Shown one piece after another: positions 4,433 to 57,315 of a stretch of 64,000 bases of DNA (its first letter is position 1; every line of letters starts with the position of its first letter). This stretch comes from a virus: positions 1 to 64,000 of the IMG/VR virus record IMGVR_UViG_3300050821_020196; one strand, given 5' to 3'. The notes under the pieces were generated by a model. It ran no database searches. It had not been told where the DNA came from and worked only from the letters and a program-made list of their open reading frames with translations. Position numbers and translations under genes: made by a program.

Positions 4433-4543
4433 GCGAAATACCACCACTGTTCCTTTCCGAGCATGAGGTAAAGGAAAATGAAATCCTTTCGACGGGCTAA
4501 AGGTTAAAACGAGCCACGGTGAAAAATGAGTGACGATTAATTT

Positions 4544-4759: not shown

Positions 4760-4846
4760 GTTTTTAGGAGGCAAATTTAACGGACGCCTCCGCACGCCCG
4801 GGAAGAGAAGCGGAAGGTTTCGCATGGAGGCGAAAAATCCTACGAA

Positions 4847-5515: not shown

Positions 5516-5534
5516 TCTCCCCTAAACCCTCGAT

Positions 5535-5583
5535 CGGGGGCCGGTGCGAAGTTTTTCTCGCCCGGCTCCCGGTCCCCTTTTTT
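5535..5583 (+). terminator. Imperfect hairpin followed by T-run
   Basis: A GC-rich imperfect stem (about 11 bp with bulges) ends in a C/T-rich run with six T residues just before the next gene's start at 5588. It fits an intrinsic terminator for the secreted protein gene ending at 5515. Confidence 0.6.
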
Positions 5584-5587
5584 CTCT

Positions 5588-6133: not shown

Positions 6134-6151
6134 GTCTCCTCCCCGGAAGAG

Positions 6152-6172
6152 CCCCGCTCCGGCGGGGTTTTT
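6152..6172 (+). terminator. Intrinsic terminator
   Basis: Perfect 6-bp GC stem (CCCCGC / GCGGGG) with a 4-base loop and a following run of five T. Ends the transcript of the gene at 5588-6133. Confidence 0.85.
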
Positions 6173-6192
6173 CTTAGGAAATTAATCCTGAT

Positions 6193-6879
6193 ATGCTTAA
6201 AAAACTCCTTTTCTCTTTAATGGCCTTCGCGAGCCTCGCACTTACGGCGCAAGCCGCTCCCCCGGAAACCATCTCCTATCTACCTTTTACAATCTCCGCC
6301 CCGGGCACTTACATTTTAGCTAGGGATCTAACATTCTCTAATAGCGGCTCGGCGATTAATATCTCTTTCGGCCCTTCCGGTCCCGTAGTTATCGATTTTA
6401 AAGGCCACACTATTACCGGTCCCGGATTTATCACCGCTCCCGGTTTAAATTTTCAAAGTACGGCAATAACGGTAGGGGGAGAAAATCTTTACCCGATTAC
6501 CATCCGGAACGGTACCCTCTCCAATTTCGAAGGCGGTATAAGGACCGCTGGCGGTTGTAGTGCCACTAATAATCTTACCATCGAATCGATGATCTTTAAC
6601 CTTCCTACGAGCCATGGTGCGTTCGGTTCGGGCGGTTCGGGAGTTTCTTTCGACGGTGCGTCTAATTGTCGCGTTAAAAATTGTACCTTTAACGCGGTAA
6701 GCACCGATCCCTCCGGAAGTTCCGGAATAGGGGATAACGATCCGCAAGGGGGCAATAGCTACGAGAACAATACCTTTAACGGCGTCTCGGCCCCCTTTTC
6801 CATTACCACCGATTTCGACTGTGGCATAGACCAGATAGTTCTCGATGCTAAGTACCGTCCGGAAAAACCGAAGCGATAG
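6193..6879 (+). CDS. Secreted beta-helix-like protein, paralogue of 4847-5515
   Basis: A 228-residue protein with a signal peptide (MLKK start, hydrophobic core, AQA-A cleavage site at about residue 21). The mature domain begins ISYLPFTISAPGTYIL, closely matching its neighbour at 4847, and continues with beta-helix-like repeats (VVIDFKGHTITG, ITIRNGTLSNF, LTIESMIF, CRVKNCTF). Two Cys-containing turns may form a disulfide. Likely exported to periplasm or surface. No enzyme active site recognised; carbohydrate binding or adhesion would be typical for such folds. Confidence 0.75.
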   Translation: MLKKLLFSLMAFASLALTAQAAPPETISYLPFTISAPGTYILARDLTFSNSGSAINISFGPSGPVVIDFKGHTITGPGFITAPGLNFQSTAITVGGENLYPITIRNGTLSNFEGGIRTAGGCSATNNLTIESMIFNLPTSHGAFGSGGSGVSFDGASNCRVKNCTFNAVSTDPSGSSGIGDNDPQGGNSYENNTFNGVSAPFSITTDFDCGIDQIVLDAKYRPEKPKR

Positions 6880-26565: not shown

Positions 26566-27066
26566 TTAGTGTTCTCCGGGTTGAGAAAGATATTCAGCTA
26601 CCTTTTTTCTGGCATTGAATTTTTGAGTTTTAGCGTCGGCCCAACGAACATTCCAAGGGTAATATCCTTCCCAGGGATTAATCCGATCCAGACTCATCCC
26701 TTCCGGTTTACTACCAATTAAGTTGGTAATGCCTAACATAAAGGTTTCGAAGCAATGCCAAGGCTCCCAAACGGTAACCCCGAGAGCGCCGTATATTCTG
26801 TACCGGTTAGATTTTGGATTATAACAACGATAGAGCATTAAATAGTGACCGTTGAATAATTCATGACCCCAAAATCCATGCTTAACACCATTTTTGTTAC
26901 CTGTAGATTTAAGTCTTAATTTAGCCCGGTATTCTTCGGTTCTTTCGAAGACTCCCGCTTTTCCTTTAAGGTAGGATCGGTCGGGATGGCTCTTATTGTA
27001 AAGCCGGATAGCCTCGGTTATTTTTGCTTGGTGCTCGGGAGTACGTTGCAGTTTTCGTTTATCCAT
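26566..27066 (-). CDS. HNH-type homing endonuclease, antisense in tail module
   Basis: A 166-residue protein starting MDKRKLQRTPEHQAKITEAI. The C-terminal half has the pattern of a widespread phage HNH/AP2-like endonuclease family: RCYNPKSNRYRIYGALGVTV, WEPWHCFETFMLG, LDRINPWEGYYPWNVRWAD and QKFNAR. Free-standing endonucleases of this kind insert between phage genes and spread by cutting phages that lack them. It lies opposite in direction to its neighbours, 6 bases after the tape measure stop. The start at 27066 is preferred to an upstream extension (to 27360), which would overlap the next gene antisense. Confidence 0.8.
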   Translation of the reverse strand: MDKRKLQRTPEHQAKITEAIRLYNKSHPDRSYLKGKAGVFERTEEYRAKLRLKSTGNKNGVKHGFWGHELFNGHYLMLYRCYNPKSNRYRIYGALGVTVWEPWHCFETFMLGITNLIGSKPEGMSLDRINPWEGYYPWNVRWADAKTQKFNARKKVAEYLSQPGEH

Positions 27067-27144: not shown

Positions 27145-28908
27145 ATGGCGAATAATTCCGATTTCCCGCAATCGATCGATAATTTCTTCGATCCGGATCC
27201 AACCACGCCGTTGGATGACGCGACCAATCCGCACCATCTTATCGAAGGGCGGCAAAACGATGCGATAGCCTCTATTCAGACGAAGGTGGGGATTGATAAT
27301 TCGGGAGACCCGAATTCGCTCGATTTTATTATCCGCAACCTGAATGCGGTGGTAACGCAAACGACGGCGCTCTTTACCCTCCCTCCGGCGGACGGAACGA
27401 CGACGGTTACGGTCGCGGTTATCTCCACGGCTAACCTAGAGGTCGGCTTCGGGGTCTTTATCCCCAATGCCGGGCTCTTCGCGGTAAATGCCATTGTCGA
27501 TGGCACCCATGTTACCCTCGTCCTCCTTCCTTATCCGGGGAACGTTTTTACCGGCAATATCCTACCTAACTCCGAGGTTTATAACGTCGGCGTTTCCTCT
27601 CCGGCAACGTCGGGGATGCTCGGCCTTCTTCCGATTCCTCCCGGGGACCCGGGCAAGATCCTCCTCGGTAACGCGACTTGGGGCACGCCCGCCGGGTCGT
27701 TACCGCAACCTCCTCCCTCTAGCGGGGCGGGGTCGGCAACGACGGTCTGGTTGCAGGGGACGGATAGCTGGCAAACATTGCCCCAGCACGCTTATACGAG
27801 CGCTCCCTTTACCGTTCCTTCGGCGGGGGGTACGGTTAGCGTTTCGATCTATCCGGCGGACTGGCCGATCGTGGGGGGCGATGTCTATTTTTCGGACGGC
27901 ACTTCCCGGGGCTTCATGGATATTATTTCCGCCGCCGGGAGCCCGGTTACCTCCCTAATTCTCGCGAATAATGGTAACGCCGTCCAAGGGGCTAATGTTA
28001 ATGCCAACGCGGTTATTAAGCTCGCCGGAGTGCCCCGGGCTTCTTTCGGCAAGGACGGCCTCTTAATCGCTCCCATTAACGACGGGATCTCCTTTCTCCG
28101 GAGCGATAACGCCTGGGCGGTTCCGCCCCAGCCAACCTTGCCCCCGGGAGTTATTCTCCCCTTCGCCGTAGCGACCCCTCCTTCGGGATACCTTCTTTGC
28201 GACGGGACGAGTTACGGGACCAATGTTTACCCCAATTTATTTAACGCCATTGGGTACACTTTCGGCGGTTCGGGCGTTTCGTTTAATGTTCCCGATTTAC
28301 GGGGAAGAACCCCTATCGGGGCCGGGCAAGGGACCGGTTTAACTAACCGGGTCTTAGGGGCGACGCTAGGAGAAGAGACGCACCTCTTAACCGTGGCAAA
28401 AATGGCTTCTCATACCCACGGCATGGATCACAGCCATAATATCGCCGCCGGGCAATTTAGCCATACCCATTCTAAAACCGATCCTGGCCATGTGCATAGC
28501 ATGGACCATTATCATAATATTTCGGCGGGGATCTTTACCCATACTCACGTCGATGCCGGGCACGCGCATAGTTATAATCAACCTCTGCATACTTCCGGAC
28601 CTACGCTAGTAGCCGGTTCCGGTTTTACCTATGGGGCGGAAAATACCGGTATCGGGGCCGCCGCTATTCAAAATTGGAATTCTCCCGCTTCGAATACCGT
28701 CTACGCTAGCCAAACCAACGCCGCCTGGGTGAATACGGTAGCGGCGGCGACGGGAATTAGCATCGTAGCGGCTACCCTCCCCGCCGGAGTAACGGCGACG
28801 GCGAGCGCGACCAACGCCGCCTACGCTAATACCGGGAGCCAAGGCGGTGGGACTGGGCATAACACGATGCCCCCCGCCCTCGTCTTAACCTACATAATTA
28901 AATATTGA
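27145..28908 (+). CDS. Tail collar-domain adhesin with His-rich tip
   Basis: A 587-residue protein. A phage tail collar domain lies at about residues 334-395 (VILPFAVATPPSGYLLCDG, then FNVPDLRGRTPIGAG). Directly after it (about 420-480) are many HTH/HSH/HVH motifs, like the His clusters that bind metal ions in trimeric short tail fibres of T4 gp12 type. The N-terminal part is Thr/Gly/Asn-rich and repetitive. It is probably a trimeric receptor-binding fibre. Its place between tape measure and baseplate, next to the antisense genes, is unusual and suggests an inserted cassette. Confidence 0.85.
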   Translation: MANNSDFPQSIDNFFDPDPTTPLDDATNPHHLIEGRQNDAIASIQTKVGIDNSGDPNSLDFIIRNLNAVVTQTTALFTLPPADGTTTVTVAVISTANLEVGFGVFIPNAGLFAVNAIVDGTHVTLVLLPYPGNVFTGNILPNSEVYNVGVSSPATSGMLGLLPIPPGDPGKILLGNATWGTPAGSLPQPPPSSGAGSATTVWLQGTDSWQTLPQHAYTSAPFTVPSAGGTVSVSIYPADWPIVGGDVYFSDGTSRGFMDIISAAGSPVTSLILANNGNAVQGANVNANAVIKLAGVPRASFGKDGLLIAPINDGISFLRSDNAWAVPPQPTLPPGVILPFAVATPPSGYLLCDGTSYGTNVYPNLFNAIGYTFGGSGVSFNVPDLRGRTPIGAGQGTGLTNRVLGATLGEETHLLTVAKMASHTHGMDHSHNIAAGQFSHTHSKTDPGHVHSMDHYHNISAGIFTHTHVDAGHAHSYNQPLHTSGPTLVAGSGFTYGAENTGIGAAAIQNWNSPASNTVYASQTNAAWVNTVAAATGISIVAATLPAGVTATASATNAAYANTGSQGGGTGHNTMPPALVLTYIIKY

Positions 28909-28917: not shown

Positions 28918-29754
28918 CTAGAACGTCCAGACCGAGGGCGAGCAGATAAAGTTCGGGTTGCCGAAGCTCCCGTAGGGAAGAAGGGAGCTATCCGCGAAGT
29001 AGATTAACCCGGTAAGGAAGCTGGTAGCGGTAAAGAAGGAAGAGGCGATCGAGAGCGCGTTAGCTATCCAGTTATTTTTATAAGCGAAGTCGCCGAAAAC
29101 CCCCGCCGCTCCCATCTCGCAAACGAAAACATTTTTCGTGGCGTCGGCGGTAGCGGCGGCGTTGAACTTCGCGCTTACGATGTCGCTAAAGGCTTGCGGG
29201 TTTCCGTAAACGAAGGTGTCGTAGGGGGCGTAGGAGTAGGCGGAGATCCCGATAATGTCTACCACGTCTCCGAGGGGGTAGTAGAGGAAGGCGTTAGCCG
29301 CCCCGTCCGGGCTCCAGATGTAAGTCGCCGGGAAGGCCGAGGGAAGGAGGATCTTAAGCCGGTTTACGACGTAGCGGTAGGCGGCGATATAGCCGTTCGG
29401 GTCATTGGTCGCCCAGTCGTAGACCCCCCGATTAGCCGGTAGCTCCATCCCCGGCCCCCAACGGAAGTAGACGCTTACCCGGGCGGAAGCGAGATCGGCG
29501 GCGAGCGCGTTAATCGTCGCGTCGTAGAGCCCGGCGGCGATGTCGGATAAGAGGGTCGCGCTCGACGAGGCGAGGGCGAAATCGGTAAAGGGGAGAACGG
29601 TTAAAAGAAGGGTGCGCCCCCGGTTGGTAGCCCCTAAGGCGGCGTTGTAAGCCGTGCCGGGGGTATAGCCGCTCCAATTGAGGAAGACGTGTTCGTAAGT
29701 AAGGTTAGTCGCGTTGCGAAAAAGGCCCCGAGGATCGTAGACGCCGAGTTGCAT
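28918..29754 (-). CDS. Glycoside hydrolase family 26-like (beta-mannanase-type) protein
   Basis: A 278-residue protein, without signal peptide, that fits a TIM-barrel glycosidase. YFRWGPGME around residues 97-104 offers Glu104 as acid/base, placed where GH26 enzymes have it, followed by an aromatic/Asn stretch and YIAAYRYVVNRL. DIIGISAYSY (165-174) and VFVCEMGAAG with Glu213 as nucleophile candidate complete the pattern. GH26 members cleave mannans or related beta-1,4 glycans. It is antisense inside the tail operon, and its start lies only 20 bases from the divergent sigma-like gene, so its promoter must lie within or beside that gene. It may be an auxiliary metabolic gene or a virion-linked depolymerase. 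Confidence 0.75.
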   Translation of the reverse strand: MQLGVYDPRGLFRNATNLTYEHVFLNWSGYTPGTAYNAALGATNRGRTLLLTVLPFTDFALASSSATLLSDIAAGLYDATINALAADLASARVSVYFRWGPGMELPANRGVYDWATNDPNGYIAAYRYVVNRLKILLPSAFPATYIWSPDGAANAFLYYPLGDVVDIIGISAYSYAPYDTFVYGNPQAFSDIVSAKFNAAATADATKNVFVCEMGAAGVFGDFAYKNNWIANALSIASSFFTATSFLTGLIYFADSSLLPYGSFGNPNFICSPSVWTF

Positions 29755-29774: not shown

Positions 29775-30767
29775 ATGGGTAATTCAGTTCGAGCGGATGG
29801 CTTAAGTCTTACCCCGGAGGGGAAAGTGCGCACCGTCTTCCATCCGGAGGGGGTTTCCGAAAAGGAGCTTTTCTTTAATGAGGAAAAGGTGGCCGCCCTT
29901 ATCGTCGAGTACCAACGGGGGAAAGAGGAACGGGTCTGGCAGGAGATCGTGCTCGAAAGCCTCTCCGCCATCGAGGCCTTAATTAAGCATTACCGCTTTC
30001 ACCAGTACGACGAGGTGGAGGCCATCCGGGGAGATTGCATTATAAAGCTCCGCCGAATAATCGAGGTTTACGATCCGGCCCGGGGGCGGGCTTTCTCGCA
30101 TATTTTTTGGTCGTTAAAAAATTTCCTGATAAGCTTCGCCCGCAATTCCCGCCGCCGGAGCGAAACTTTTAGCGGCTTAGAGGAGTTTGGGGATACGCTT
30201 GCCGCCTCGACGCTTTATGGGTTAGAGCTAAGCGAACACTTTAAAACCCGGGTGCTCCGGATCGAGACCCGTTTTTCGCTCCCGATCGAGAAGGAGGCCA
30301 TCCGCTTCTTAATCGTCTATTTCCTTCTAGAGGGCCTAGGCAATGCCCGGCCCCGTCTTCTCCCTTTCCTTTGCGGGCATTATGGCTTCCCCCGGGGAGA
30401 GGCGGAGCTACTCTACGCCTACGCCTCCGTTCTCCTCCGGGGAGCCCTTTTCGAGGAGTACCCGACCCAACTCGGTTTCGATTTCGAAGAGCTAAGGCAT
30501 AGCCGCAAAGGAAAACGCTTTTTCGAAATCGCCCGCATCGTAGGCCGGGAGAATTTCTTGAAGTTGATCTACATTTTCGGGGGGGTTACCGTCCGTCTCC
30601 CGGAAAAGGGGGAAGAAGCTCGTTTAAAGGCCGCCGCCCGCTTTCTCGCTTCGTTAGGAACGGTTTCGAAGGAGCCTCCGCTAAAGAGGGGAGAGGCGGA
30701 GGAAACCCTCCTCTCCGGGGCGCTAAAGGGCTTCGATCGCACCGGGCCGCTCTTCGAGGAAACTTAA
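29775..30767 (+). CDS. Sigma-factor-like protein (late-transcription sigma candidate)
   Basis: A 330-residue protein. Residues 40-125 match the region 2 pattern of phage sigma factors of the T4 gp55 type: an acidic start, ALIKHYRFHQYDEVEAIRGD, then DPARGRAFSHIFWSLKNFLI and a basic end FARNSRRRS, where such proteins contact -10 DNA. The remaining 200 residues have no clear region 4. In T4-like phages this factor directs late transcription from a simple -10-like element. Here it sits between the antisense glycosidase and the LysM gene; the GTANTTA motif before many genes could be its target. Confidence 0.65.
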   Translation: MGNSVRADGLSLTPEGKVRTVFHPEGVSEKELFFNEEKVAALIVEYQRGKEERVWQEIVLESLSAIEALIKHYRFHQYDEVEAIRGDCIIKLRRIIEVYDPARGRAFSHIFWSLKNFLISFARNSRRRSETFSGLEEFGDTLAASTLYGLELSEHFKTRVLRIETRFSLPIEKEAIRFLIVYFLLEGLGNARPRLLPFLCGHYGFPRGEAELLYAYASVLLRGALFEEYPTQLGFDFEELRHSRKGKRFFEIARIVGRENFLKLIYIFGGVTVRLPEKGEEARLKAAARFLASLGTVSKEPPLKRGEAEETLLSGALKGFDRTGPLFEET

Positions 30768-34934: not shown

Positions 34935-36211
34935 ATGGCCGATATTTCTCCGCTTCCCGCCTTCTCCGGTCTCCCGCCGCTGGCCTTCGCGGTCAAGGAC
35001 CCCACGCTGATAGTGACGAATATTATCGCCGCCACGGAAGCCTTCTATCTCCAGAATACCGGCAAGGCCATCTCTCTCGCCGAGGCCGATCCCCGCCGTC
35101 TCTTCCAGCTAGTTAACGCCGCCCTCTTTTCCCAACAGAGGGTGCTCATGGATTTTTGCAATAAGCAAAATTTGGTTGCCTTTAGCCAAGCCCCCTTCCT
35201 CGACGCCCTAGCCGGAAACTGGGGCTACGATCATAATGGCAATCTAATCGCCGAGCGCAAGGCGGCCACGTCGGCGCAGACGACGATGCAATTTAGCGTC
35301 CCGGCCCCGCTGACCACTGTCTTAACCATTCCGGCGAGCACCCAGATCGGAGCGGCTAGCGGAGCGGTCTTCCTTACCGACGCCGACGCCAATATACCGC
35401 TCGGGAGTACGACGATTATAGTCTCGGCCAGTTGTAGCGTGCCGGGATCGGTCGGCAACGGCTTCCTAGCCGGACAGGTTATCCAACCGGTCAACTGGCC
35501 GCAAACGCTTACGGTTAACAACGTTAGCGCAACGAATATCGATACTTCCGTCGGCGGTTTCGACGCGGAGAACGATTTCGATTTCGCTAACCGCCAGCTT
35601 CTATCCCGGACGGCTTCGGGGGCGCGGGTCCGATCGGCCCTTATAAGCGGGCCATTGCCGGAACGAAGACGGCCATTCTCGACTCGGCGATTATCGGCCC
35701 CCAGGTGCCGCAACTTCTCTCCCCGACCTATAACGGCGGTCCTCCCTTCCCGGCGGGCACGGTCAATATTTACGTTATCGAGCAAGGGGCGAACGGCCCA
35801 GGGATGCCCAACGCCTCCACCCTCGCCGCCGTGCAAGCGGCGTGCGATGACGACTGGACGCGACCGACGACGGATTACGTCTTCTGCCAGGCCCCCTCCG
35901 GAGTTCCCTTTAGCGTAAGTGTGCAATGGTTTTGCGACGTCGATAACCTCCCCAACCAGACGAACATCGCCCAGGCCATGCTCAATACGGCGAATAGCTA
36001 CGCTCTTTGGCAATCGTCGAAGATCGGGCGCTCGCTTAACCCCTCCTACGCTACCCAACAATTTATGGCCACCGGAGCCTCTTCGGTAAAGGTGATCTCC
36101 CCCGTCTATACCGATCTTCAACCGTATCAGGTCCCCGTTCTAGCCGCTACTTCCGGGGTGCCCAATATCTCGGTCGCCTTTATGGGACTGGCCTCCGACC
36201 TAGTAAATTAG
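34935..36211 (+). CDS. Baseplate wedge protein (gpJ-like), one-base frameshift in a G-tract
   Basis: Two frames together encode a gpJ-family protein of about 425 residues. The first frame (from 34935) carries DPTLIVTNIIAATEAFY to FDAENDFDFANRQLLSRTAS; the second carries GPYKRAIAG, then PAGTVNIYVIEQG and the C-terminal wedge domain to 36211. Adding one G to the G5 run at 35618-35622 gives a seamless reading across the junction (SGGAGPIGPYKRA). Thus either a base is missing in the assembly, the gene is a pseudogene, or slippage joins the frames. The product would be essential for the baseplate. Confidence 0.85.
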
Positions 36212-39776: not shown

Positions 39777-42700
39777 ATGGCTGGCGTTAACATAACCGAA
39801 ATCGTCCCCAGTACCCCTTTAGCCGTCGTCGAAAGTAGCGGCGTCCAGGGGCCGGTCGGCCCCCCCCGGCCCGACCGGACCGAAAGGAGTTCCCGGGAGC
39901 ACCGCCTCCGTTTCGGAAGACCCGAACAACATCGCCATCCTGGGCACGGACGCCCTCCTTTATGTTCCGGGGCCGAGCAACGGAAATGCCTCGAACGGGG
40001 AAGTGGTTACCGGGAACGATACCCGGTTAAGCGACTCCCGGAATCCCCTCCCGCATCGTGCTACGCACGAGCACGGCGGTTCCGATCCGGTAACGGTTAC
40101 CTATGCCGATCTCGCCGGAATCCCCGCTTCCTTCGCCCCTTCCGCTCACGCCTCCTCCCACGAAAGTGCCGGGAGCGATCCGATCGGGCTCGATACGCTC
40201 GCCTCTCCTTCGGATAACTCGAATCTTAACGCGACCGCGAACGCTCACGGGCTCCTCCGCAAGCTGGATAATAACGCTAGTCATTATTTAGACGGGACGG
40301 GATCGTGGAGTCTCCCCCCGGTTAATACCGGCCCTACGGGTCCCTCGGGAGTTACGGGCCCGACGGGAGCGGTAGGGCCGACGGGCCCGGTCGGACCGGC
40401 GGGAAATCCGGGTCCGACGGGGCCGACGGGCGCTACCGGGGCCACTGGAGCCGCTTCGACCGTTCCCGGACCGACCGGAGCCGCCGGGGTAACCGGCCCG
40501 GCGGGCCCGGCGGGAACGACCGGCCCGGCGGGCGTTACCGGTCCGACCGGTCCGACCGGAGTTGCCGGGCAATCGTTTACTTTTCGCGGAAGTTGGTCGT
40601 CTTCGACCGCCTATTCCCTCCTGGATACCGTTACCCGTTCCGGGTCGAGTTACGTTTGCATTTTAGCCAATACGAATGTCGACCCGGCCCTCGATCCGAG
40701 TCGCTGGTCATTAATGGCGGCGATGGGTGTTACGGGTCCGAGCGGGGCCACCGGTCCGGCGGGGGCGACCGGAAGCACCGGTCCCCAAGGCGTTGCCGGG
40801 CCAACGGGCTCCCAAGGGATTCAAGGTTCTACGGGCCCGGCGGGGCCGACCGGGCCGACCGGCACGAGCGTTAGCTTAAAAGGATCGGTCGCGACTTCCT
40901 CCGCCTTACCGCCGACCGGGAATACCTTCGGGGACCTATGGATCGCTACCGATACCGGGGAAGGCTGGGTTTGGAGCCCGCCCGGGCAATGGGAAAACGT
41001 CGGCCACATTCAAGGGCCTCCCGGCCCTACCGGGGGTACGGGCCCGACGGGGCCGCAGGGGATCGCCGGGGCAACCGGCCCGCAAGGCATTCAGGGCACC
41101 CCGGGAATGACGGGGGCAACCGGCCCGGCGGGAACGAGCGTGCTCCTTAAGGGCACCGTTGCCACTTCTTCTAGTCTTCCGTCGAGCGGGAATAGCTTCG
41201 GGGACTTATGGATAACGGCGGATACCGGGCACGGCTGGGTTTGGACGAGCCCGGGCACCTGGGTAGACGTCGGCCCCATTCAGGGACCGGCGGGCGCAAC
41301 GGGGGCAACGGGAAGTACGGGTCCGCAAGGAGTCGCGGGCACTCCGGGAACGCAAGGCCCGGTGGGAAATACGGGCCCGGCGGGGCCGACCGGGCCGACC
41401 GGCCCGCAAGGGAATCAGGGGCCGACCGGGGCGGCGGGCACCCCCGGTGCGACCGGCCCAACCGGTCCGGCGGGCGTAACGGGCGCAACGGGTGCGACGG
41501 GAGGTGCGGGAAATCCGGGCCCCAATGGCCCAACCGGTCCGGCGGGAGCGACCGGGGCCACGGGCCCGGCGGGCACCCCCGGTGCCACGGGCCCGGCGGG
41601 CGCATCGTTCGTTTGGCGGGGGATTTGGTCGAGCGCGGTGGCATACGTCCCTTTCGATAGCGTTTCGCAAAATGGTTCGACTTACGTCGCCGTTTTAGCT
41701 TCGACGAATAGCGATCCCAGCTCCGACGGCGGCGTGCACTGGCAGTTAATGGCTAGCGCCGGAATTACCGGGGCAACCGGCCCGACCGGGCCGACCGGCC
41801 CCCAAGGCGTTGCCGGGGCCACGGGACCGACGGGAAACCAAGGGCCGATCGGGAATACCGGGCCGACCGGGCCGACCGGCACGGGTACCCCCGGTGCGTC
41901 GGGGCCGACGGGCCCGACCGGGGCAACCGGCCCGGCGGGGCCGAACGTCGTTAGTACCGACGCGAATAATAAAGCTATCCTCGGCTCGGATAGCCATGTC
42001 TTCGTTTTAGGCACGGCTCCGGGAGTAGGTGCGACCGGCCATAGCCAAGTCGTAAGTGGTGATGATCCGGCGCTAACCAATTCTAGAACGCCTCTTCCGC
42101 ACGCGATTACTCACCGGGCGGGTTCGGGGGACGCGCTCGCGATCGACGTACTCGCCGCCCCGAGCGACAATGCGAATTTAAACGTCTCGACGTCGGCCCA
42201 CGGGCTCGCTCCGAAGCTCTCCGGCAACTCCGGTCAGTATCTCGACGGCACGGGGGCCTGGTCGGTGCCCGCCGGAACGGGAGGAGGCGGAGGCGGAGGA
42301 ACGGTTATTACCCTTCCTTCTTCGGCTCCGCCGATTACTCCGCCGCGAGTAGCGACTTATTTCGTTGCCCAGGCCAGCGCCGGAAGCGGAAGCGGGCTTA
42401 GCATCGGCAATCCCGTCTCGGTCTCTACCTTTAACGCGAATAGCGCCCTGGCCGCCGGAACGGTCGTTCAATTTAATGGCACGCTAACCACCGGGATTAA
42501 CCCCAGTTGTAGCGGGGCCGCCGCCAACCCGATCTACCTGGATTTCCGGCTAGCCACGGTTACGACGACGGTAACGATTAATAACCGGAGCTACCTTACC
42601 CTCCTCGGCGGTACCACGAGCCCCTCTTCGGCGAACGATATTTTCGGTATGTCCGGTTGCACCGGGATTACCATCGATAGTTGGACTTATCTCGGCACTA

Positions 42701-44889
42701 GCCTCAGCAATTATCTTAATGCCGGGCTAATCGGCACCTGCACGAATACCATTATCTCGAATTGTGTTCTTCACAATTTCGCCATGGGATTCGCCGGGGA
42801 TAACAATAATGGCTTCCTCATTATTGGCAACGATCTCCTAACCAATACCAACGCGGGTGGTCAGTGCGATATTATTCACCTCGGTAGCGCGCTTAACATC
42901 ACCATTGAGCGAAATAAGATCGTCCAGCGGGCTCCGGGCAACCCGACGACGAGGCATAACGATTGCATCCAGACGTATACGACCGGCACGGCCAATCCCA
43001 ATAACTGGATTGTCCGCTATAACTGGATAGAAAATCAACAAACGACGGCCAATAGCTCCGGGGATTGTTCCTGGCATATTATGCAGGATATGCAGGACGC
43101 GGGAAGTCTCCCGGCCTTAAAGATCTACGGCAACGTCTATGTCGGGAGCGGCAACGCCTCTAACAATGGTATCCTTTGCAACCGCAACGGGGCCTCCGGG
43201 GGAACTTTTTATCTCTACGGGAATACCTTCGCGATTACCCCGAACGACTCCCCGGTTAATACCGTCCGCTTCTTAAACGATGCCGGGCCGGGCACTCTTT
43301 ACGCCCGGAATAATGCCGGGCAGAGGGCCGCCCAACGGGGAACGGATCTCGAATGGGACCTTACCCCCGGGGGAAGCGGGTTCGATTATAACTTCTGGTA
43401 CAACTGGTTCGGATCCAATACCGAGCCCGACTCCCTTTTCTCCGGGCCGCACGGTTTCTTTTCCGGAAGCCCGCCGACCACTTCTCCTTTTAACAATTTT
43501 AGCGGAGGCGACTTTAGCCCGGCCACCGGGAGCCCGCTTATCGGAGCGGGCGACATCACCATCGGCTCCGAGTTCCAATACGGTCTCCAGCCGGGGACGA
43601 CTTTCCCGAATCCGACGGTTATCCAGCGGGCAGCTTCCGCTTACGACGTCGGCGCGTTCGTCGCCACTCCGGCCCTTACCGGAGGCGGAGGCACCGGAGG
43701 AGGAGGTACTGGCGCTCCAGGCGAAAACGCTTTTACGGTTACCGCAAGCGACTCGACCGGCACTTTTACCGTGCCTCAGGTTGGCTCCTCGACGACGGTT
43801 AACGTAACCAACGCCGACTTTATAGTTCCTGGCCAGATTGTTTACATCGCCGGAGCGGGCGGACCGGGAACCGCTGGAGCGCTTCAAGTACAGGCCGTCG
43901 TGGGCAAAACGCTTACTTTATATAACCCCATTCCCCCTCCTTCCGGGTCTTCCCCGGGAAGCGGCGGGATAGTTTATTCCGGGGTTAGCTCGGTAAGCGT
44001 CGTCGGCAATACCATCTCCCTCGTTAACGATCTCGCTAACCCGGGCAATTTAAAAGTCTACGGGACCAATCCCTCCGGAGTACTCGGTTGGAGTGCCATC
44101 TCCGGGCTACCGGTAAATTATGCCTCTCTCGTCGGTACGCAACCGGCTCCCCCGCCGCACGCCGCTTCGCACGAAAGCGGAGGGGTCGACGTTATCCCGC
44201 TCGATACCCTCGGCTCGCCGACCGACATTACCACGCTCAATGCTTCGACGAGCGCTCACGGTCTTCTCCGCAAACTAGACGGAACGGCGACCCATTATTT
44301 AGACGGCACCGGAGCCTGGAGCACCCCCGCCGGAGGTGCGACGGGAGCTACGGGCCCGACTGGGCCGACGGGAAAGAATTGTTATACAACGACCAGTGGG
44401 CCCTTTACCGTCCCCAGCTCGGGGACGGTAACGGTTTCCGTCGTCGATGCCGGATGGGCCGTTCCCGGGGAGATGGCCTATTTTAGTGGTGCGGGCGGAT
44501 CGGGTTTAGCCGGGGCGCTAGAGATCGTTTCTATCGCCGGAAATACCCTAACCCTCGGATTGCCGACGCCGCCGAGCTACGCGCCTCCGGCGGTCGACCT
44601 TACCGTTTTTATCGAGAGCCCGACGAATAAGACTTACGTCCTCGACCTCGGCCTTCCCGCTCCTTGTACGATTACTTCGATTTTAATTAAGACCGTCTCC
44701 GGTACCTGCACGGCGGCTTTAAACCGCAACGGCTCGGCCATTACCGGAGCGAGCGCTCTTTCCGTTAGTAGCACGCTAACCTCGGTAACTCTAGGCCAAG
44801 CTTGCTCCGCCGGGGATACGATAACCCTAGTTATAAGCGCGAACTCTAGCTCCGTCGATCTAGCCGCTTCCGTCCACATGCAACCGTAG
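39777..44889 (+). CDS. Giant collagen-like tail fibre with beta-helix region, frameshifted at a C8 run
   Basis: Read through a one-base frameshift, this gene encodes about 1,700 residues. The first frame gives [29 protein letters not shown]; after C8 (39860-39867) the second frame continues [15 protein letters not shown] and onward. With seven C the frames fuse exactly. Gly-X-Y collagen repeats fill four blocks separated by paired modules: two like carbohydrate-binding CBM5/12-type domains ([11 protein letters not shown] / [11 protein letters not shown]) and two with [17 protein letters not shown] right-handed beta-helix segment (about 42350-43650) and a C-terminal jelly-roll-like part follow. 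It is a likely receptor-binding fibre. Internal ATG at 40003 could also start a shorter protein. Confidence 0.9.
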
Positions 44890-46759: not shown

Positions 46760-47923
46760 TTAAATAATCGCGAAGTACGCCTCCGCCGTCTCCCGGTCGA
46801 CGACCTCCCAGTAGTGCTCGCGGAGCATGCGCTCGGAGTGGTCGGCTTGTCCCGCCGTCCAGGTTAAACCCTTTAACGCGACGCCGTAGGAGCAAAAGGA
46901 ATGCCGGAGCACGTTCTGTGGCCAGGGGGAGATACCGGCTTTCCCCGCCGCCTTCGTCATTACGATCTGCAAGCCGGGCCGGGGAGGGAGAACAGGACCC
47001 GAGCATGTCTCGGGAATTCCCGAGACATCCTTAGGAATTCCTAAAGATGAAGCGAGGATCGTCGCCAGATTTTCCGGGATTTCGATAAGCTTGCGCTTGC
47101 CGTTCTTCGACTTGCCGAAGGGGAGGTCGATAAGCCGCCGGTCGAGCTTTATCTCGCTCCAATCGAGCCGCTCGGCCTCCGCTCGCCGCAAGCCGGTAAA
47201 GGCGGAGATCGCGAAGAAAGGAACGAACTCCGGGCGGAGGGCGAGAAGGAACTTTGCCAGTTGCTCCGGGGTAAGCACCGAAACTTGCCGTCCCCGCTTT
47301 GCCGGATCGTTAAAGGGAACCACTTCGGCGAGGGGGTTGCTCGGGAGAAGGTGCCAGCTTTTGGCCATGTTAAGCGCGTTTTGTATGTAGCCCAGGTGCC
47401 GGTTTCTGGTTTTTATCGCCAGGTCGAGGCCGGAGAGCCAGCTCTTTATCCCGTTCTCGGTAAGGAGGGAGAGGGTCTCCTCGCCGAAACGGCCCTCGAA
47501 TTTGCGCAAGGTCTCCCGCATCGATTCGGCGTGGCGCTCGGAAATCTCTTTCGTCGCGAGGCGACGCTCGAATTCATTGGCTACCCGTGCGCAGAGGGCC
47601 CGTACGCTGCCCGAAGAGGAAAGCCGGTCTAAATGATTCCGGTAGAAGTGCACCGCCTCGTAGAGGGTTTTATCGTAGGGCCGGAGCATTTCAATGCACT
47701 CGGCGGCCATGACCCGTTGCGTGTCGGTAAGGGAGGTACGGGTGCCGAAGGCGGCGATCTGATCGTTTAGATTGCGGGCGGCGGCTTTCGCTTCCTTTTC
47801 GGTAACGAAGTAGTACCGTTCCCGCTTGCCGGTAGGGCGGCCCTCGATTTTCCATTCCTTTTTCCCGTTGGGGGAAGAGAGTTTAAAAACGCGGAAAGAC
47901 TTGGACGACGGCGGGCGCGGCAT
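46760..47923 (-). CDS. Tyrosine-type site-specific integrase
   Basis: A 387-residue recombinase. Residues 1-60 are a basic arm-binding region, about 80-190 a SAM-like core-binding domain, and 215-387 the catalytic domain: Arg246 in TGLRRAE, Lys in KSKNGKRK (271-278), Arg340-His341 in NVLRHSFCSY, His362 and nucleophile Tyr371 in HYWEVV. It integrates and excises the prophage at tRNA-Glu, whose 3' end lies 104 bases away. The reading direction is away from the tRNA. Confidence 0.96.
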   Translation of the reverse strand: MPRPPSSKSFRVFKLSSPNGKKEWKIEGRPTGKRERYYFVTEKEAKAAARNLNDQIAAFGTRTSLTDTQRVMAAECIEMLRPYDKTLYEAVHFYRNHLDRLSSSGSVRALCARVANEFERRLATKEISERHAESMRETLRKFEGRFGEETLSLLTENGIKSWLSGLDLAIKTRNRHLGYIQNALNMAKSWHLLPSNPLAEVVPFNDPAKRGRQVSVLTPEQLAKFLLALRPEFVPFFAISAFTGLRRAEAERLDWSEIKLDRRLIDLPFGKSKNGKRKLIEIPENLATILASSLGIPKDVSGIPETCSGPVLPPRPGLQIVMTKAAGKAGISPWPQNVLRHSFCSYGVALKGLTWTAGQADHSERMLREHYWEVVDRETAEAYFAII

Positions 47924-48026
47924 AGGTTATTCAACCTACGCCCGTTTACGCCCATAATTAAGGTTTTTCCAGTCTTTTCGCGTCGCTTCCCGTCGCTTCG
48001 CCCCTGGGGAAGGGTTACATCCCAAG

Positions 48027-48099
48027 CGACCCTAACGGGATTCGAACCCGTGTTACCGCCGTGAAAGGGCGGTGTCCTGGGCCACTGGACGATAGGGTC
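48027..48099 (-). tRNA. tRNA-Glu (UUC), prophage attachment site
   Basis: On the minus strand: acceptor GACCCTA/TAGGGTC, D-arm with GTCC/GGAC, anticodon stem CCGCC/GGCGG with loop CTTTCAC (anticodon TTC), and T-arm with GGTTCGAATCC. Discriminator G. Its 3' end faces the integrase gene, so the prophage probably recombined within this end, leaving the tRNA intact. Confidence 0.96.
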
Positions 48100-48258
48100 G
48101 TTCAGGGAGAGCGGAATATGGCAGTAAGAGCAGGGTGCGCAAGCGAAAAGTGCGCCGGCACCCTGCAGGCCGCGCCGGAGCGACAAACCCGAACTTGCAT
48201 TCACGATCCGTTAACTCTGCTGCTCCCAAACTCCTGACTCCCGGCTCCTGACTCCTGA

Positions 48259-49560
48259 TCACTGCTTTGCCCGTTTCGCAATGATCATGGACGCAGTACG
48301 TCGTATCGCCCCCTGGTGTTGAGCCATTGCTCTAGAGGCGCGTGCCACCAAGGCGGAGGCAGCCGATGGATTTCGCAGCAAATCCGCGAGCGTCGAGACA
48401 AGAGCGTCGGCAGAATGCAGCTGAACTATCCCTCCGGCTTTTCGCAGTTCATCTACGATGTATTGAAAATTCTCCATGTGTGGGCCCACCACCACCGGCT
48501 TGCTGGCCAGGATCGGTTCAACCGGATTCTGTCCCCCTTTGCCGTAGAAGCTTTTGCCAACGACCACCACCGTCGCCGTGGAATACCAATCCCGGAGTTC
48601 TCCGGTCGTGTTGACCAGTAAGACAGACGGATCATGCCGGAAATCCGGTTCGGAACGCAGAGTGAAGCGGACGTTTCGGGCTCGCAGGAGTTGCGCGATC
48701 TCAGGGGTTCGTTCGACGTGGCGTGGAACCAGGATGAGAAAGAGTTGAGGGAATTCAGTCAAAAGCAATTGAAACCCTGAGAGCAGCAGATCCTCTTCGC
48801 CGGGATGCAGACTGCCACCCAGCAGGATCGGGCGGGCCGCTTTCACCCCGTGTTGTTCCAGCCAGCGAGAAAAGCGCAAGTCGATTCCGGCCGCCAAATT
48901 TTCCGTGTCATATTTCATGCTCCCGGTCACGGTGATGCGACTGGCAGGCACGCCAACCCGTTTCCAGCGTTCGGCGTCGACTGGATCTTGCGCACAGAGG
49001 GTCGTCAGATTCTGCCAGAAAAGAGTCTGCGCGATATTTCGTAGCTTGATGTAGCGCTGTTCTGACCGTCGCGAAAGTCGGGCATTTGCCAGGTATACAG
49101 GGGATCGGTGCTCCTTGGCCAAAGCCAGAAATGAAGGCCATAAATCGGAGTCAATCAGGATCGCTTCATGCGGCCGGATCTTTTGCCAGCAGGCTTTTAC
49201 AATAGGGTAGAAGTCGATCGGATTATAAATGATTTCGATCCATGGCCGGTTTTCGCTTCGCTGTTGTCCCAGTGCGAATCCCGTCGAAGTGGTGGTTGAA
49301 ATGACCGCCTTAAAATCGGGAAATTGCCGCTTAAGTTCTTCAATCAGGCGAAGCGCCATCACGATTTCTCCGACACTGACGGCGCGAATCCAGGTCCATC
49401 CGCCTTCAGCAAATCGGTCAGCCAATCCTTTCGGGTAAACGCCGAACCGTTGCGTAAAGCTCCGGAGGTAGCCGCCGCGCCTGAGCATCCGTCTCAGGTA
49501 GAATGGGAAGGAAACGAGGAGCGCAAGCGGCAGCAGAATATTGTAGAGGATTAACAGCAT
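48259..49560 (-). CDS. waaA: 3-deoxy-D-manno-octulosonic acid (Kdo) transferase
   Basis: A 433-residue GT-B enzyme that adds Kdo to lipid A on the inner membrane. Start MLLILYNILLPLALLVSF gives the N-terminal membrane anchor. The acceptor part has SVGEIVMALRLIEEL. Conserved C-terminal motifs are visible: GGSLHPGEED, PRHVER and GKGGQNPVEP. The ATG at 49560 overlaps the rsmD stop by one base, so the two are coupled. A longer reading frame (to 49671) overlaps rsmD and is not needed. Confidence 0.95.
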   Translation of the reverse strand: MLLILYNILLPLALLVSFPFYLRRMLRRGGYLRSFTQRFGVYPKGLADRFAEGGWTWIRAVSVGEIVMALRLIEELKRQFPDFKAVISTTTSTGFALGQQRSENRPWIEIIYNPIDFYPIVKACWQKIRPHEAILIDSDLWPSFLALAKEHRSPVYLANARLSRRSEQRYIKLRNIAQTLFWQNLTTLCAQDPVDAERWKRVGVPASRITVTGSMKYDTENLAAGIDLRFSRWLEQHGVKAARPILLGGSLHPGEEDLLLSGFQLLLTEFPQLFLILVPRHVERTPEIAQLLRARNVRFTLRSEPDFRHDPSVLLVNTTGELRDWYSTATVVVVGKSFYGKGGQNPVEPILASKPVVVGPHMENFQYIVDELRKAGGIVQLHSADALVSTLADLLRNPSAASALVARASRAMAQHQGAIRRTASMIIAKRAKQ

Positions 49561-50117
49561 CAGCCGGGGAGTTTCTTGTGAATACAAAATAGCAGTTTGG
49601 TGGCGCCGTATTTTTTGGCTCGAATAATCTCCCAAAACCGTGAAGCGCTGACTTCCTTGATCGGTGAACATTCAAGGACCACAAGACCTTCGGGTTCGAC
49701 GGCGGCCACCAGAAATTTGTCTTCTAAAAGTTCTCCGGCAATATCTCGGTCACCGGCTTTTTTGGCATAGGGCGGATCAGCAAACACCAACCGATATCGT
49801 TCCTGATGCTTTTCTAGAAACCGAAAAGCGTCGTCCCGAAACACTTTGCCGTCGAGTTTTGTTCTGGCAAGGTTTGATCGAATCGCTTCGATGGACTTCG
49901 GGTGGTCATCCACGAAAACAGCATCAGCGGCGCCTCGGCTCAATGCTTCAATTCCGTACCCGCCGCTTCCGGCGAAAAGATCAAGAACGTGTGCGCCAAT
50001 AACGAAGTCTCCGAGGGCCGAAAAAGCGGCTTCTCGCACCCTATCCATGGTCGGACGCAAATCGTGGGCCGGAGTTTTTAACAGGATACCGCCAGCCGAC
50101 CCGGCAATGACTCTCAT
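49560..50117 (-). CDS. rsmD: 16S rRNA (guanine966-N2)-methyltransferase
   Basis: A 185-residue methyltransferase starting MRVIAGSAGG, the usual RsmD N-terminus. Then LRPTMDRVREAAFSAL, the SAM-binding LDLFAGSGGYGIEALSRGA, and the catalytic motif FADPPYAKK. It methylates G966 of 16S rRNA. The ATG at 50117 was chosen over a longer reading because it matches the family start. Upstream (50118-50374) shows no gene. Confidence 0.95.
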   Translation of the reverse strand: MRVIAGSAGGILLKTPAHDLRPTMDRVREAAFSALGDFVIGAHVLDLFAGSGGYGIEALSRGAADAVFVDDHPKSIEAIRSNLARTKLDGKVFRDDAFRFLEKHQERYRLVFADPPYAKKAGDRDIAGELLEDKFLVAAVEPEGLVVLECSPIKEVSASRFWEIIRAKKYGATKLLFCIHKKLPG

Positions 50118-50374
50118 AAGGAGCCACGGAACGCAATCCGTTGTCGTCCTCCGGCGCACGGATACCTTGGCTTGTGTGCGAGAAAAAATCGCAATGTAGA
50201 AAGCATGGCACAGAGGTCACAGAGGGGGGATGTGATCGCCGGCCCGAGAATTCTGTTGATAACACCGTGACCTCCGGACGAGATCGCCAGTGAAACGACC
50301 TGATTTGTTGCGTCGATCACAGCGGGAACGATCAGCTTCGCAGACGACGAGCACAAGAATGAACTGCGGCCACG

Positions 50375-52027
50375 TCAACCGTTTGAGGGTCTTCCGGCTC
50401 GCTCGGGACCAGATGGCACCCGATCACGCCGCTTCTCTTTGTGGTCCGGGTGGAAAAGCTTTTTCATTAGTTTGCTTTTGTCGCCGATGATCCTCTCAAA
50501 GAGATCGGTCTGCGGCTTCAGCACCGATCCAGTGACCTGAAAATCGAGATACCGCCCATCCCCATCCTTTGATTTTGCAAAATTTTCTTCCAGTTCATTC
50601 GGAATTTTCTGGCTGAGAAATTGGCTGACCGTTAAACGACCGTTCAGGTCAAGTTTTTGCGCAGATTCGACTTTTCCCCAGAGGTTCACTTGAACGTTTT
50701 TTGAGATCAACTGCAACGAATCGACTTTGATGTCTTGCCCGACCACGCTGAATTTCGAGAGAGCCTGTTCGAGCTCAAGTCGTTGCAATTCGTCGATCCG
50801 AGTCCACCGTCCGAGCTCTTTCAGTACCGGGTATTGATCGAGGTAGCCCGTTTTGATCTCCAGACTGCCATCGCCCGAGGCGAGCGACGGATTTTTCATG
50901 AACCCTGCCAGCTGAAAATTCCCTTGCAGAGTACCGTGCGCCCGATCAAGGATCCCTCCGGCCCGGCTGCTAATTTCATTGATATTCACATCAGCCACCT
51001 GAGCGTGCAGCTGATACGGTATTTGGGAGTTGGTCAGATCCGCATGAAAACTCCCGTGGATTTCGCCTCCGGAAATTTGTGCGGTGATGTCCTCCAAATC
51101 GAGGGCCCCGTTGGAACACTTCACCGGCGAGGCTACATCTTCCACATTAATCGAATCTCCAATGGCCGCGCTCGAAATCCGCACTTTCCCGACATATTCC
51201 CCTTTGTGCGATTGCACGAATCCTTCGACGTCGCGTAGGGTTGCTGCCGGAACGCCTTTCGCCCCTAATAAGTAAATCGTGATATTCCGAATCTTAAACT
51301 TCCGAATCTCCACCCAAAAGCTTCCCGGGATGCCATTCTCGGCGGGCGAGGCCTTTCCGGGTCGAGCAGCCCCAGTGACCAGGTCCGCTTTGGTGGGAGA
51401 CGATTTGCCGGAATTCGCTGGAGGGATCGGCCGGACCACAGGGGCTTCCTCCGCTTCTTCATTTGACTCGGGCCGGCCGGCGGTCGGAATTCGGAACTCC
51501 GCTCCGCTCAAAATTACTTGGCGGACGATCAGTTTGCGCCGGAAAAGCGGCAGATAATTGCACTGGATCCAAAGGTCTTGCGCTTTCATGACCGGATAGT
51601 CCGCAGACGGATCCTGAACCGAAACATCCTCCAGATGAAAGCCGCTCCAGGGCGTGAAACTGATGCGAAAAACGGAAACCGGATAGCCGAGATTTTCGCT
51701 AACGATTTCTCGCAGTCTTAGCTGAGTGTCGGGAGATTGAACATAAAGGTTAATGGCCAGCAATCCTAGTCCGACCAGGCCGCCTATCGCGACAACAACA
51801 ATCAGCACCGGCTGGACAATGCGTTTCACTCCACCGTGGAAAACGCCCGCGGTAGAGCTCGAGAGAAATTCCCTAATCGACGAGAACAAGGTCTGGATTC
51901 TTTTGAATCCAATCGGTTCGGCCGTCAGGGACGCGAATCTTTCACGCAGCGCCCAAAACCAGTCACGGAGCTGACCGAGGACTTTTCTACCGAATATAGA
52001 TTGAAAGCGCAAGAGACAGAATGTCAA
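50375..52027 (-). CDS. AsmA-like membrane-anchored protein
   Basis: A 550-residue protein from TTG. A hydrophobic anchor lies at about residues 71-93 (QPVLIVVVAIGGLVGLGLLA), followed by a long periplasmic part of beta-rich repeats (LRLREIVSENLGYPVSVFRI, FHLEDVSVQDPSA, and later DLNGRLTVSQFLSQKIPNEL), typical of the AsmA/DUF748 family. AsmA-like proteins are thought to help move lipids to the outer membrane. The start is uncertain: GTG at 51829, just before the anchor, is an alternative. Confidence 0.8.
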   Translation of the reverse strand: MTFCLLRFQSIFGRKVLGQLRDWFWALRERFASLTAEPIGFKRIQTLFSSIREFLSSSTAGVFHGGVKRIVQPVLIVVVAIGGLVGLGLLAINLYVQSPDTQLRLREIVSENLGYPVSVFRISFTPWSGFHLEDVSVQDPSADYPVMKAQDLWIQCNYLPLFRRKLIVRQVILSGAEFRIPTAGRPESNEEAEEAPVVRPIPPANSGKSSPTKADLVTGAARPGKASPAENGIPGSFWVEIRKFKIRNITIYLLGAKGVPAATLRDVEGFVQSHKGEYVGKVRISSAAIGDSINVEDVASPVKCSNGALDLEDITAQISGGEIHGSFHADLTNSQIPYQLHAQVADVNINEISSRAGGILDRAHGTLQGNFQLAGFMKNPSLASGDGSLEIKTGYLDQYPVLKELGRWTRIDELQRLELEQALSKFSVVGQDIKVDSLQLISKNVQVNLWGKVESAQKLDLNGRLTVSQFLSQKIPNELEENFAKSKDGDGRYLDFQVTGSVLKPQTDLFERIIGDKSKLMKKLFHPDHKEKRRDRVPSGPERAGRPSNG

Positions 52028-52223
52028 TCAGTTAGCCGCGATTTTACGCTAAAATTCCAGCGATATCGGAAAGGTTTGTCCATCAGGCATTCTAAATAAC
52101 TTCGGCCGGTTGAGGTTACTTTCGGTGCTGATAAAGTAGTCTGCGGGCGCAGCGCTGTCTCGAATAGTTTTTAAGGCCGGTTAGACATAAGTCTCAAGCC
52201 TGTTTTCGGTGCACCTAGCGCCA

Positions 52224-54971
52224 ATGTTCCCTGGACCCCGAGGAAGACAGCTTGGCCTCAAGAAGCTATCTTTCGTCTCGATGGCCGAAATTGATGCCCC
52301 CAAGTTAGTGGAAGACCTTTGGGATCCGTCCGCAGGGCGCAAGGTATGGGGAAGACTGGTTTCCGCAAATCAAGACATGGCGCAAGCGCTGATCGCTTCT
52401 CCCGACCGCGCTAGTGCGATCTTGAACTTTTTGATTTTTTCTCCGATCTCGGTGGAGAAAATCTGCCGGCGGCCAGAGCTATTGGATTGGTTGAGTCACT
52501 CTGACGTGAAAAATCCGAAGGCGACTTCCCGGCCAAGCTGGCAGGGTGACAGGTCGGATCTTTCGTTTCGCGATCTCAGGCTCTGGAAATCTCAGGAAAT
52601 GCTTCGAATCGCTTTTCGGGATATCAGCGGGCTGGCCGGGTTTGCCGAAACGACGCGAGATATCACGGCGGTCGCCGAGCGTTGCGTCTCCGAGGTCTAT
52701 GCGACCTGTTTCGAAAACCTGGCCGGCAAACGAGGCCGGCCGGAGACTGGTTTCTGCATTTTAGCCATGGGCAAATTTGGCGGTACTGAGCTGAACTACA
52801 GCTCGGATATCGATGTTATTTTCTTTTACGGCGACGAAGGAAATGTCAGTTCCCGATTGACCCACCACGAGTTTTTTACGCGTTTGGCCGAGAGCATCAT
52901 TCGGATTTTCTCGGCCACGGCGGATCCTTTGTTTCGGATTGACGTCCGCCTTCGGCCCGAAGGTGGAAACGGACCGCTGGTTCGATCGCTGGCCAGCATG
53001 GAGAATTATTACGCCGGATACGGTGAGACGTGGGAACGGATGGCTTTGATCAAGGCGCGGGGTGTGGCTGGAGACAATGAACTGCTCTACGAGTTCAACC
53101 AACGATTGCAGCCTTTTATTTTTCCACGAATCGTTTCTGCCGATCTGTTGGACGAAATTGCGGCGGTCAAAGTTCGGATCGAAAGAGACGTTGTCGGTCC
53201 TGCGGAGCTCCACCGTAACGTGAAACTAGGATTTGGAGGCATTCGGGAAATTGAGTTTATCTTGCAAACCTTGCAGCTTTTGCACGGAGCTAGAAATGCC
53301 TTCCTGCAGGAGCGAAACAGTCTCAAAACTCTGGTTGCGTTGGAGCAGTTGAATATCCTTCCGCCGAACGAAGTGCGCCTGCTCCGTGACGCTTACATTT
53401 TTCTGCGGTCGGTCGAGCATCGTTTGCAAATCCAAAACGAGCAACAGACGCACACCTTGCCGGCTCGCAGAGAGGCCTGGCTCGGAATTGTCCGTACTCT
53501 TGGGTATGACCAGGCGCCCCCTTTCGCAGAAGCCTTGCAATCGCATACCTCAGCGGTGCGGTCGGTTTTTGACCGGTTGCTGAAAAGTAGCGAAGCGAGA
53601 TCGAAAGAATCATCGCGTGATCTTTCCGGCTTTCGCGATCCCGAACGCGCTGTGCGCGCATTGACGGCGTTGCGCGAAGGACCTTCCGCCGTCCATGTGG
53701 CACCTCGAACTCGGCGTCTCTTTGCAAAGCTTGAGCCGGAATTGCTGGCCTGGTGTGCGCGGGTGGCTGAACCGGATGCCGCGTTGAATCGTTTGGTTCG
53801 TTTTGTCGAGGCCTACGGCACTCGAGGGCTGCTTTTTGAAACGATGCTGGCCAACCCAAAATTGCTGGAGTTGCTGGTACGCCTTTTTGACGCCAGCGCC
53901 ATTTTCAGCGACGTAGTGATCCGGCGCCCCCAGCTGATTGAGGAGATAACGCGTGGCAAGACGCTTGGATTGTCGATTTCCAAAGAGCAGTTTCTGGAGG
54001 ATCTCAGACGCAACGAAGAGAAATTGGCGCCGCTCGTCTGGGTCCGCGTCTATCGAAGCAGCGCGGTGGTCCGAATTCTTCTGCGGGATATCCTCGGAAT
54101 GGCTTCTCAGGAAGAGCTGCAGTTTGAGATGACGAACCTGGCCGAGGCCTGCTTGGTTTATTGTTGCCGGCAACTGGCCAGACCAGACCAGATTTCGGTG
54201 CTCGCCTTGGGAAAATTTGGAGGTCGCGAACTGCTCTATGGAGCCGACCTGGATCTGGTTTTCGTTGGAAATGAGGTCAGCGCCGGTGAGCAATTGATTC
54301 AAGCGATGGGAGCAAAAACGGCGGAAGGCGTCGCCTTTCCGCTGGACGGACGTCTGCGACCAGACGGTGAAAAAGGCGTGCTGGTCACGCCGCTGGCCGC
54401 ATATCGAGAATATTTCGATCAACGGGCGCACTTTTGGGAAGCGCAAGCCCTGACCAGGGCTCGTGCCGTGTACGGACCCGAAGCGTCATCCCTGAATGCA
54501 TCCGTCGGGGAAATCTGGACCCGCTGGAGCAGACAAGCCGATTTGAAATCGGAAGTTCAAAAAATGTATCGAAGGATCGTCAAGGAACGCGCCAAAGGGG
54601 ACGATCTTCAACACTTCAAAACGGGAAAAGGTGGTCTGATTGGAATTGAATTCCTGGTTCAATATCTCCAGATGAAGCATCAGGTGCAGGAGACGAATAC
54701 CCTTCGAGCCGTTGAGAAACTGACGGGTATTCTGGATCCACAAGAAAGTGTGCTCCTGCGTACCACCTACGGTTTTTTGCGCCGCATCGAATCAGTGTTG
54801 CGACGTGTTTCAAATAGCCCGATCTCTCAACTTCCCTCCGGTGCCGACGATCTGCGGGTATTGGCTATCCGGATGGGGTTTGCCAGTCAGGAGGAGTTTC
54901 TGGGCCAGTACGCCGCGCGACGGCGCGAAGTCGAGACAATCATCGAGAATCATTTTCAACCGCTGTCATAA
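52224..54971 (+). CDS. glnE: Glutamine synthetase adenylyltransferase / deadenylase
   Basis: About 915 residues. Two nucleotidyltransferase domains are visible: MGKFGGTELNYSSDIDVIF in the first half and LGKFGGRELLYGADLDLVF in the second, each with a helical GlnD-like region following (LGFGGIREIEFILQTLQL; TGKGGLIGIEFLVQYLQM). The bifunctional enzyme adds AMP to or removes it from glutamine synthetase under PII control. Starts at GTG 52209, ATG 52224 or ATG 52281 are all possible; no Shine-Dalgarno decides. Confidence 0.95.
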   Translation: MFPGPRGRQLGLKKLSFVSMAEIDAPKLVEDLWDPSAGRKVWGRLVSANQDMAQALIASPDRASAILNFLIFSPISVEKICRRPELLDWLSHSDVKNPKATSRPSWQGDRSDLSFRDLRLWKSQEMLRIAFRDISGLAGFAETTRDITAVAERCVSEVYATCFENLAGKRGRPETGFCILAMGKFGGTELNYSSDIDVIFFYGDEGNVSSRLTHHEFFTRLAESIIRIFSATADPLFRIDVRLRPEGGNGPLVRSLASMENYYAGYGETWERMALIKARGVAGDNELLYEFNQRLQPFIFPRIVSADLLDEIAAVKVRIERDVVGPAELHRNVKLGFGGIREIEFILQTLQLLHGARNAFLQERNSLKTLVALEQLNILPPNEVRLLRDAYIFLRSVEHRLQIQNEQQTHTLPARREAWLGIVRTLGYDQAPPFAEALQSHTSAVRSVFDRLLKSSEARSKESSRDLSGFRDPERAVRALTALREGPSAVHVAPRTRRLFAKLEPELLAWCARVAEPDAALNRLVRFVEAYGTRGLLFETMLANPKLLELLVRLFDASAIFSDVVIRRPQLIEEITRGKTLGLSISKEQFLEDLRRNEEKLAPLVWVRVYRSSAVVRILLRDILGMASQEELQFEMTNLAEACLVYCCRQLARPDQISVLALGKFGGRELLYGADLDLVFVGNEVSAGEQLIQAMGAKTAEGVAFPLDGRLRPDGEKGVLVTPLAAYREYFDQRAHFWEAQALTRARAVYGPEASSLNASVGEIWTRWSRQADLKSEVQKMYRRIVKERAKGDDLQHFKTGKGGLIGIEFLVQYLQMKHQVQETNTLRAVEKLTGILDPQESVLLRTTYGFLRRIESVLRRVSNSPISQLPSGADDLRVLAIRMGFASQEEFLGQYAARRREVETIIENHFQPLS

Positions 54972-55087
54972 ACGCGAGAAGCTTCTTGTGTTCGACTCGT
55001 GACTCTTCTGCCTAAACCTGAGAAACCGGTGGAATCTGTGGTTCCAACTTCTTTGACTAAATCCGCTCTGCCTACCATTCTACACTT

Positions 55088-57251: not shown

Positions 57252-57315
57252 CATAGGTTAGGCGGTCACACAACGCGAGCGCTGAGAGGAGGGGAAGGAG
57301 ATCTCCTTGGGCGCA

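Follow-up and report, generated by a model that had tools for sequence, protein, structure and literature searches.

The closest described cellular system is the arabinose-polysaccharide operon of Sinorhizobium meliloti, with the gene order uxs1-uxe-apsS-apsH1-apsE-apsH2 (PMC7902896); from this order, we read apsE as its GH26 gene. Viruses of mangrove and tundra soil have been predicted to carry GH26 genes (PMC6460857, PMC10127799), and viral GH26 is routinely classed with the plant-carbon auxiliary genes. The protein described here resembles the glycoside hydrolases of soil viruses in being a virus-borne enzyme, or candidate enzyme, of the GH-A clan. The initial annotation had invoked mannan-degrading enzymes from soil viromes, and a viral endomannanase with demonstrated activity does exist in permafrost soil, but that assayed enzyme is a GH5 and not a GH26 (PMC6786970).

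The window, that is, the entire stretch of 64,000 nucleotides analyzed here, belongs to a record of 70,526 bp, which comprises a soil prophage integrated at tRNA-Glu, followed by genes of the host and by an element of 12 kb that resembles a satellite. The prophage encodes terminase, portal, protease, capsid, sheath, baseplate, and integrase. The relevant features (G001 designates a related phage described below) are as follows.

27145-28908, plus strand: tail collar fibre, convergent neighbour (Pfam PF07484, 4.2e-18; PHROG tail families; orthologue in G001)
28918-29754, minus strand: GH26-fold protein without signal peptide, 278 aa from ATG (Pfam, AlphaFold, Foldseek)
29775-30767, plus strand: weakly sigma-70/late-activator-like protein, divergent neighbour (phrog_836, E 0.008; TIGR02937, E 0.079, which is below the cut-off; G001 orthologue with 36% identity)
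46760-47923, minus strand: prophage integrase beside tRNA-Glu (phrog_1, 4.9e-31)
48026-48099: tRNA-Glu, next to the prophage integrase
48026-56424: cellular genes between the two integrated elements (WaaA-like, RsmD-like as judged by eye, AsmA, GlnE, malate dehydrogenase)

The GH26 gene is a real gene with an unbroken reading frame of 278 codons; only 10 bp lie between it and the stop codon of the collar-fibre gene, and 20 bp between it and the divergent gene that starts at position 29775. It had been described as lying antisense between tail genes. It is indeed antisense within the tail module, with the collar fibre to its left, but its right neighbour showed no recognisable tail-gene identity in PHROG and profile searches. 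This sigma-70/late-activator-like gene itself lies within the tail module; in G001, it and the next gene have exchanged places. Codon usage of the GH26 gene correlates better with that of the phage late genes (0.83) than with that of the host genes (0.64), in contrast to the low-GC HNH endonuclease gene nearby (26566-27057, minus strand; GC 43% versus ∼56% in its surroundings), which is likely a recent insertion. The antisense orientation suggests that the GH26 gene is transcribed on its own, perhaps in the lysogen. Promoters or terminators scoring above chance were not found for it, so that the promoter previously proposed within the divergent gene could only be inferred. That the gene resides on an invertible segment was considered and rejected, its flanks being devoid of inverted repeats of note.

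Assignment of the 278-aa protein to GH26 was narrow at the level of the Pfam model (PF02156; 21.1 bits versus a curated cut-off of 20.2), and a PHROG search with it returned no match. The AlphaFold model, built on an alignment of five sequences, contained eight barrel strands (mean pLDDT 77.6, pTM 0.82), and this (β/α)8 barrel was nearest to GH26 structures, which, together with the Pfam match, upholds the GH26-like homology and the complete fold pattern asserted by the initial annotation. The top solved structure by both profile and fold was CtLic26A, the GH26 lichenase of Clostridium thermocellum (2vi0, 2bvd). It was the best PDB match in Foldseek (E 6.5e-14), and the best seven matches were all chains holding it; GH26 lichenases were followed by a β-1,3-xylanase and then by mannanases (4e-8). 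Comparison of the family profile with PDB sequences produced the same ranking (lichenase, 3e-34; best mannanase, 8e-11). No viral GH26 match was found in the structural library. CtLic26A is a secreted enzyme of the cellulosomal type; it is only ∼20% identical to the phage protein and possesses both catalytic glutamates. Judged by profile and fold of its nearest solved relatives, the phage protein is not a mannanase by descent. The earlier designation as mannanase is contradicted both by these lichenase structures and by the nearest relatives, which are GH26 proteins of synthase operons.

Using tblastn, relatives were found in 125 plasmid records, mainly of Sinorhizobium and Rhizobium (30-38% identical); across the relatives as a whole, G001 included, identity was 30-39% over almost the full length. 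In the annotated records, genes for UDP-glucuronate decarboxylase, GalE, and a GT2 synthase precede that for GH26. Operons of this UDP-sugar/GT2 synthase/GH26 type occur in Rhizobium, Phyllobacterium, Sulfitobacter, Loktanella, Sinorhizobium, and Microvirga, the gene set of the latter being similar to the rhizobial ones. In Burkholderia multivorans, a single frame (positions 4162-6801 of record L007) encodes a GT2 synthase fused to a GH26 domain. By sequence comparison, the closest cellular relatives of the phage protein are GH26 proteins of the ApsE type, whose genes adjoin that for a GT2 polysaccharide synthase or, in one case, form a single frame with it. With these, the phage protein shares homology over the full length (30-35% identity), the start of the GH26 domain, and the nucleophile region. 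It differs from them in lacking the N-terminal hydrophobic segment, the R-x3-E acid/base motif, and the synthase neighbour: its GH26 domain begins at Met1 with no hydrophobic segment preceding it, which agrees with the absence of a signal peptide noted before, and its gene is surrounded by phage tail-module genes instead of a GT2 synthase gene. No fibre fusion or attachment domain was seen within the 278 residues.

Scanning viral sequences with an alignment of the cellular relatives identified G001, a soil phage, which remained the sole phage relative in all viral scans, whether run with single proteins or with alignments.

5995-6801 of L017 (IMGVR_UViG_3300047160_020601): GH26 gene of G001, antisense to tail genes, 268 aa, 39% identity

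In a blastp comparison of all ORFs, G001 largely shared the gene order of the prophage over a long set that includes the portal, head, sheath, baseplate, and fibre genes; exceptions were the sigma-like and LysM-like genes, which are swapped, and the terminase, which lies on the opposite strand. Its GH26 protein also lacks an export signal, and its gene likewise runs antisense to the tail genes, tightly enclosed by its neighbours (22 bp to the divergent gene; 38-bp overlap with the convergent gene). The proteins of the two phages group together in a clade (support 99/97). They differ in that the G001 protein retains the acid/base glutamate (RWGQEME), and in that its gene is located after the second fibre cluster, whereas that of the window follows the collar fibre; the gene has therefore either moved or been acquired twice. 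Neither phage protein had near relatives among annotated phages, where the only related match was an “endoglucanase” of GX15bay, 23% identical to the Burkholderia protein (E 0.04). Two IMG/VR contigs (L015 and L016), with GH26 proteins 45% and 42% identical to cellular ones, were rejected as viral relatives and taken as bacterial DNA around prophages. A search for kin based on the portal yielded one 58% fragment and distant phages; GH26 was absent from all 14 of these records searched, most of which are fragments.

A probable departure from the family concerns the active site, for which Glu104 and Glu213 had been proposed as the catalytic pair.

29116-29118, minus strand: codon of Glu213, the conserved nucleophile (invariant alignment column)
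29437-29461, minus strand: last part of strand 4 with the subsequent loop, R98 W99 G100 P101 G102 M103 E104 L105 (codons CGT TGG GGG CCG GGG ATG GAG CTA), with Gly102 probably at the position of the relatives' acid/base glutamate

Glu213 was borne out, as it aligns with the invariant nucleophile of strand 7. In contrast, Glu104 is probably not the acid/base. In each of the 16 relatives compared (cellular proteins, G001, and CtLic26A), strand 4 ends with R-x3-E, corresponding to Arg197 and Glu201 of BoMan26B (PMC6556568). All three multi-sequence alignments, and that with G001, placed Gly102 in the acid/base column, to which the profile alignment assigned it with a posterior of ∼0.8-0.9, suggesting that the catalytic residue was probably lost in the window copy. 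The spacing from R98 to G102 and that from E104 to W114 both correspond to the family, which would place a 2-residue insertion after Gly102 or just before Met103. The model does not choose between Gly102 and Glu104, because its pLDDT is below 50 at residues 104-111 and because the underlying alignment already placed Gly102. Furthermore, where the cellular relatives share a glutamate with CtLic26A (EPW/EPY), the window protein has Leu54 and that of G001 a glutamine, indicating that the phage lineage altered the pocket in other ways, too. A compensated frameshift within the catalytic loop was considered as well; by eye, the other frames did not restore R-x3-E. Still, a frameshift elsewhere in the record means that sequence errors are possible.

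The reading that best accommodates these data, to which we assign a probability of roughly one half, is that GH26 is long-resident cargo of a temperate, contractile-tailed phage lineage and a compact, signal-less member of the ApsE-like clade, the G001 copy being an active hydrolase and that of the window an impaired or a binding form. This reading is favoured by the common clade with G001, the collinearity of the two phages, the antisense orientation in both, and the codon usage matching that of the late genes, as well as by the synthase operons of the cellular relatives and the constant R-x3-E spacing. With both catalytic glutamates intact, the G001 copy is probably active, while the window copy, its acid/base position probably being Gly102, would be weakly active or inactive on the natural polymer; its role, if any, may be that of a polysaccharide-binding protein. 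Lacking Sec export, the window protein could not contact surface polymers as long as the cell is alive; access to sugar polymers would require lysis or carriage on the virion. The protein may be a depolymerase of the virion, as considered before, or one released by lysis. For its ligand, a surface or matrix polysaccharide of bacteria, in this reading the surface polysaccharide of the host, would then be the likeliest candidate, and not plant mannan; the operons in which the cellular genes reside, the lack of an export signal, and a catalytic residue that was probably lost all point to a bacterial surface polymer. Against this reading, an enzyme released by lysis would ordinarily be co-expressed with the late genes, which is difficult to reconcile with an antisense gene.

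The alternative of an active GH26 with a shifted acid/base, in which insertion of Pro-Gly at the end of strand 4 moves the catalytic glutamate to position 104, appears unlikely, although it would preserve activity in an otherwise equipped pocket (R98, W114, Y173, and E213 are all present). One pairwise MAFFT alignment, with the Microvirga protein, does match Glu104 to the acid/base glutamate by means of a 2-residue insertion before Glu104, and the insertion could be placed in this way, as it results in the 10 residues to Trp114 found in most relatives. However, none of the relatives has an insertion between the strand-4 arginine and the glutamate, and the profile posterior and the remaining alignments favour Gly102. 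A similarly doubtful alternative is that the gene is a functionless, decaying passenger of a degenerating prophage. A frameshift near 35.6 kb divides the baseplate J-like gene (34935-36211) in two, whereas its G001 orthologue is intact; the split is either real decay or an assembly error. If real, it would be in line with decay, as would the probable loss of the acid/base, but the 278-codon frame is intact, the other conserved positions of the protein are retained, and the other structural genes appear intact. We also give little credence to a more specific course of events, namely, that the phage lineage took up a synthase-coupled hydrolase and dropped its export signal, with one branch becoming a non-catalytic polysaccharide-binding protein, either virion-borne or released by lysis. 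Least tenable, and very improbable, is a mannanase that the virus contributes as an auxiliary metabolic gene, releasing mannan of plants or microbes to the benefit of the host: GH26 comprises many mannanases, its Pfam model was matched, and a viral GH26 from mangrove soil has been annotated as one (PMC6460857), but profile and model are much nearer to lichenases, a protein without signal peptide would not be exported from the living cell, the acid/base is probably lost, and the relatives belong to polymer-synthesis operons.

As this case illustrates, annotating GH26 by family name alone misleads, and the pair formed by G001 and the window phage constitutes a natural test of an active versus an impaired form. 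Elsewhere in the record, the 12-kb element (56385-68474, of which 56385-64000 lies within the window) is flanked by direct repeats of the tRNA-Lys 3′ end and carries genes for an integrase, a primase-like AAA protein, a phage capsid protein E, and head decoration. Terminase, portal, and tail genes were not found among its genes searched, and it looks like a phage satellite. Within the prophage, the tail fibre encoded at 40003-44889 (1628 aa) contains collagen-like GPTGATG repeats and coincides with a local GC peak of 71%, and a glycosyltransferase gene (1402-2505) matches a moron PHROG (β-1,4-glycosyltransferase).
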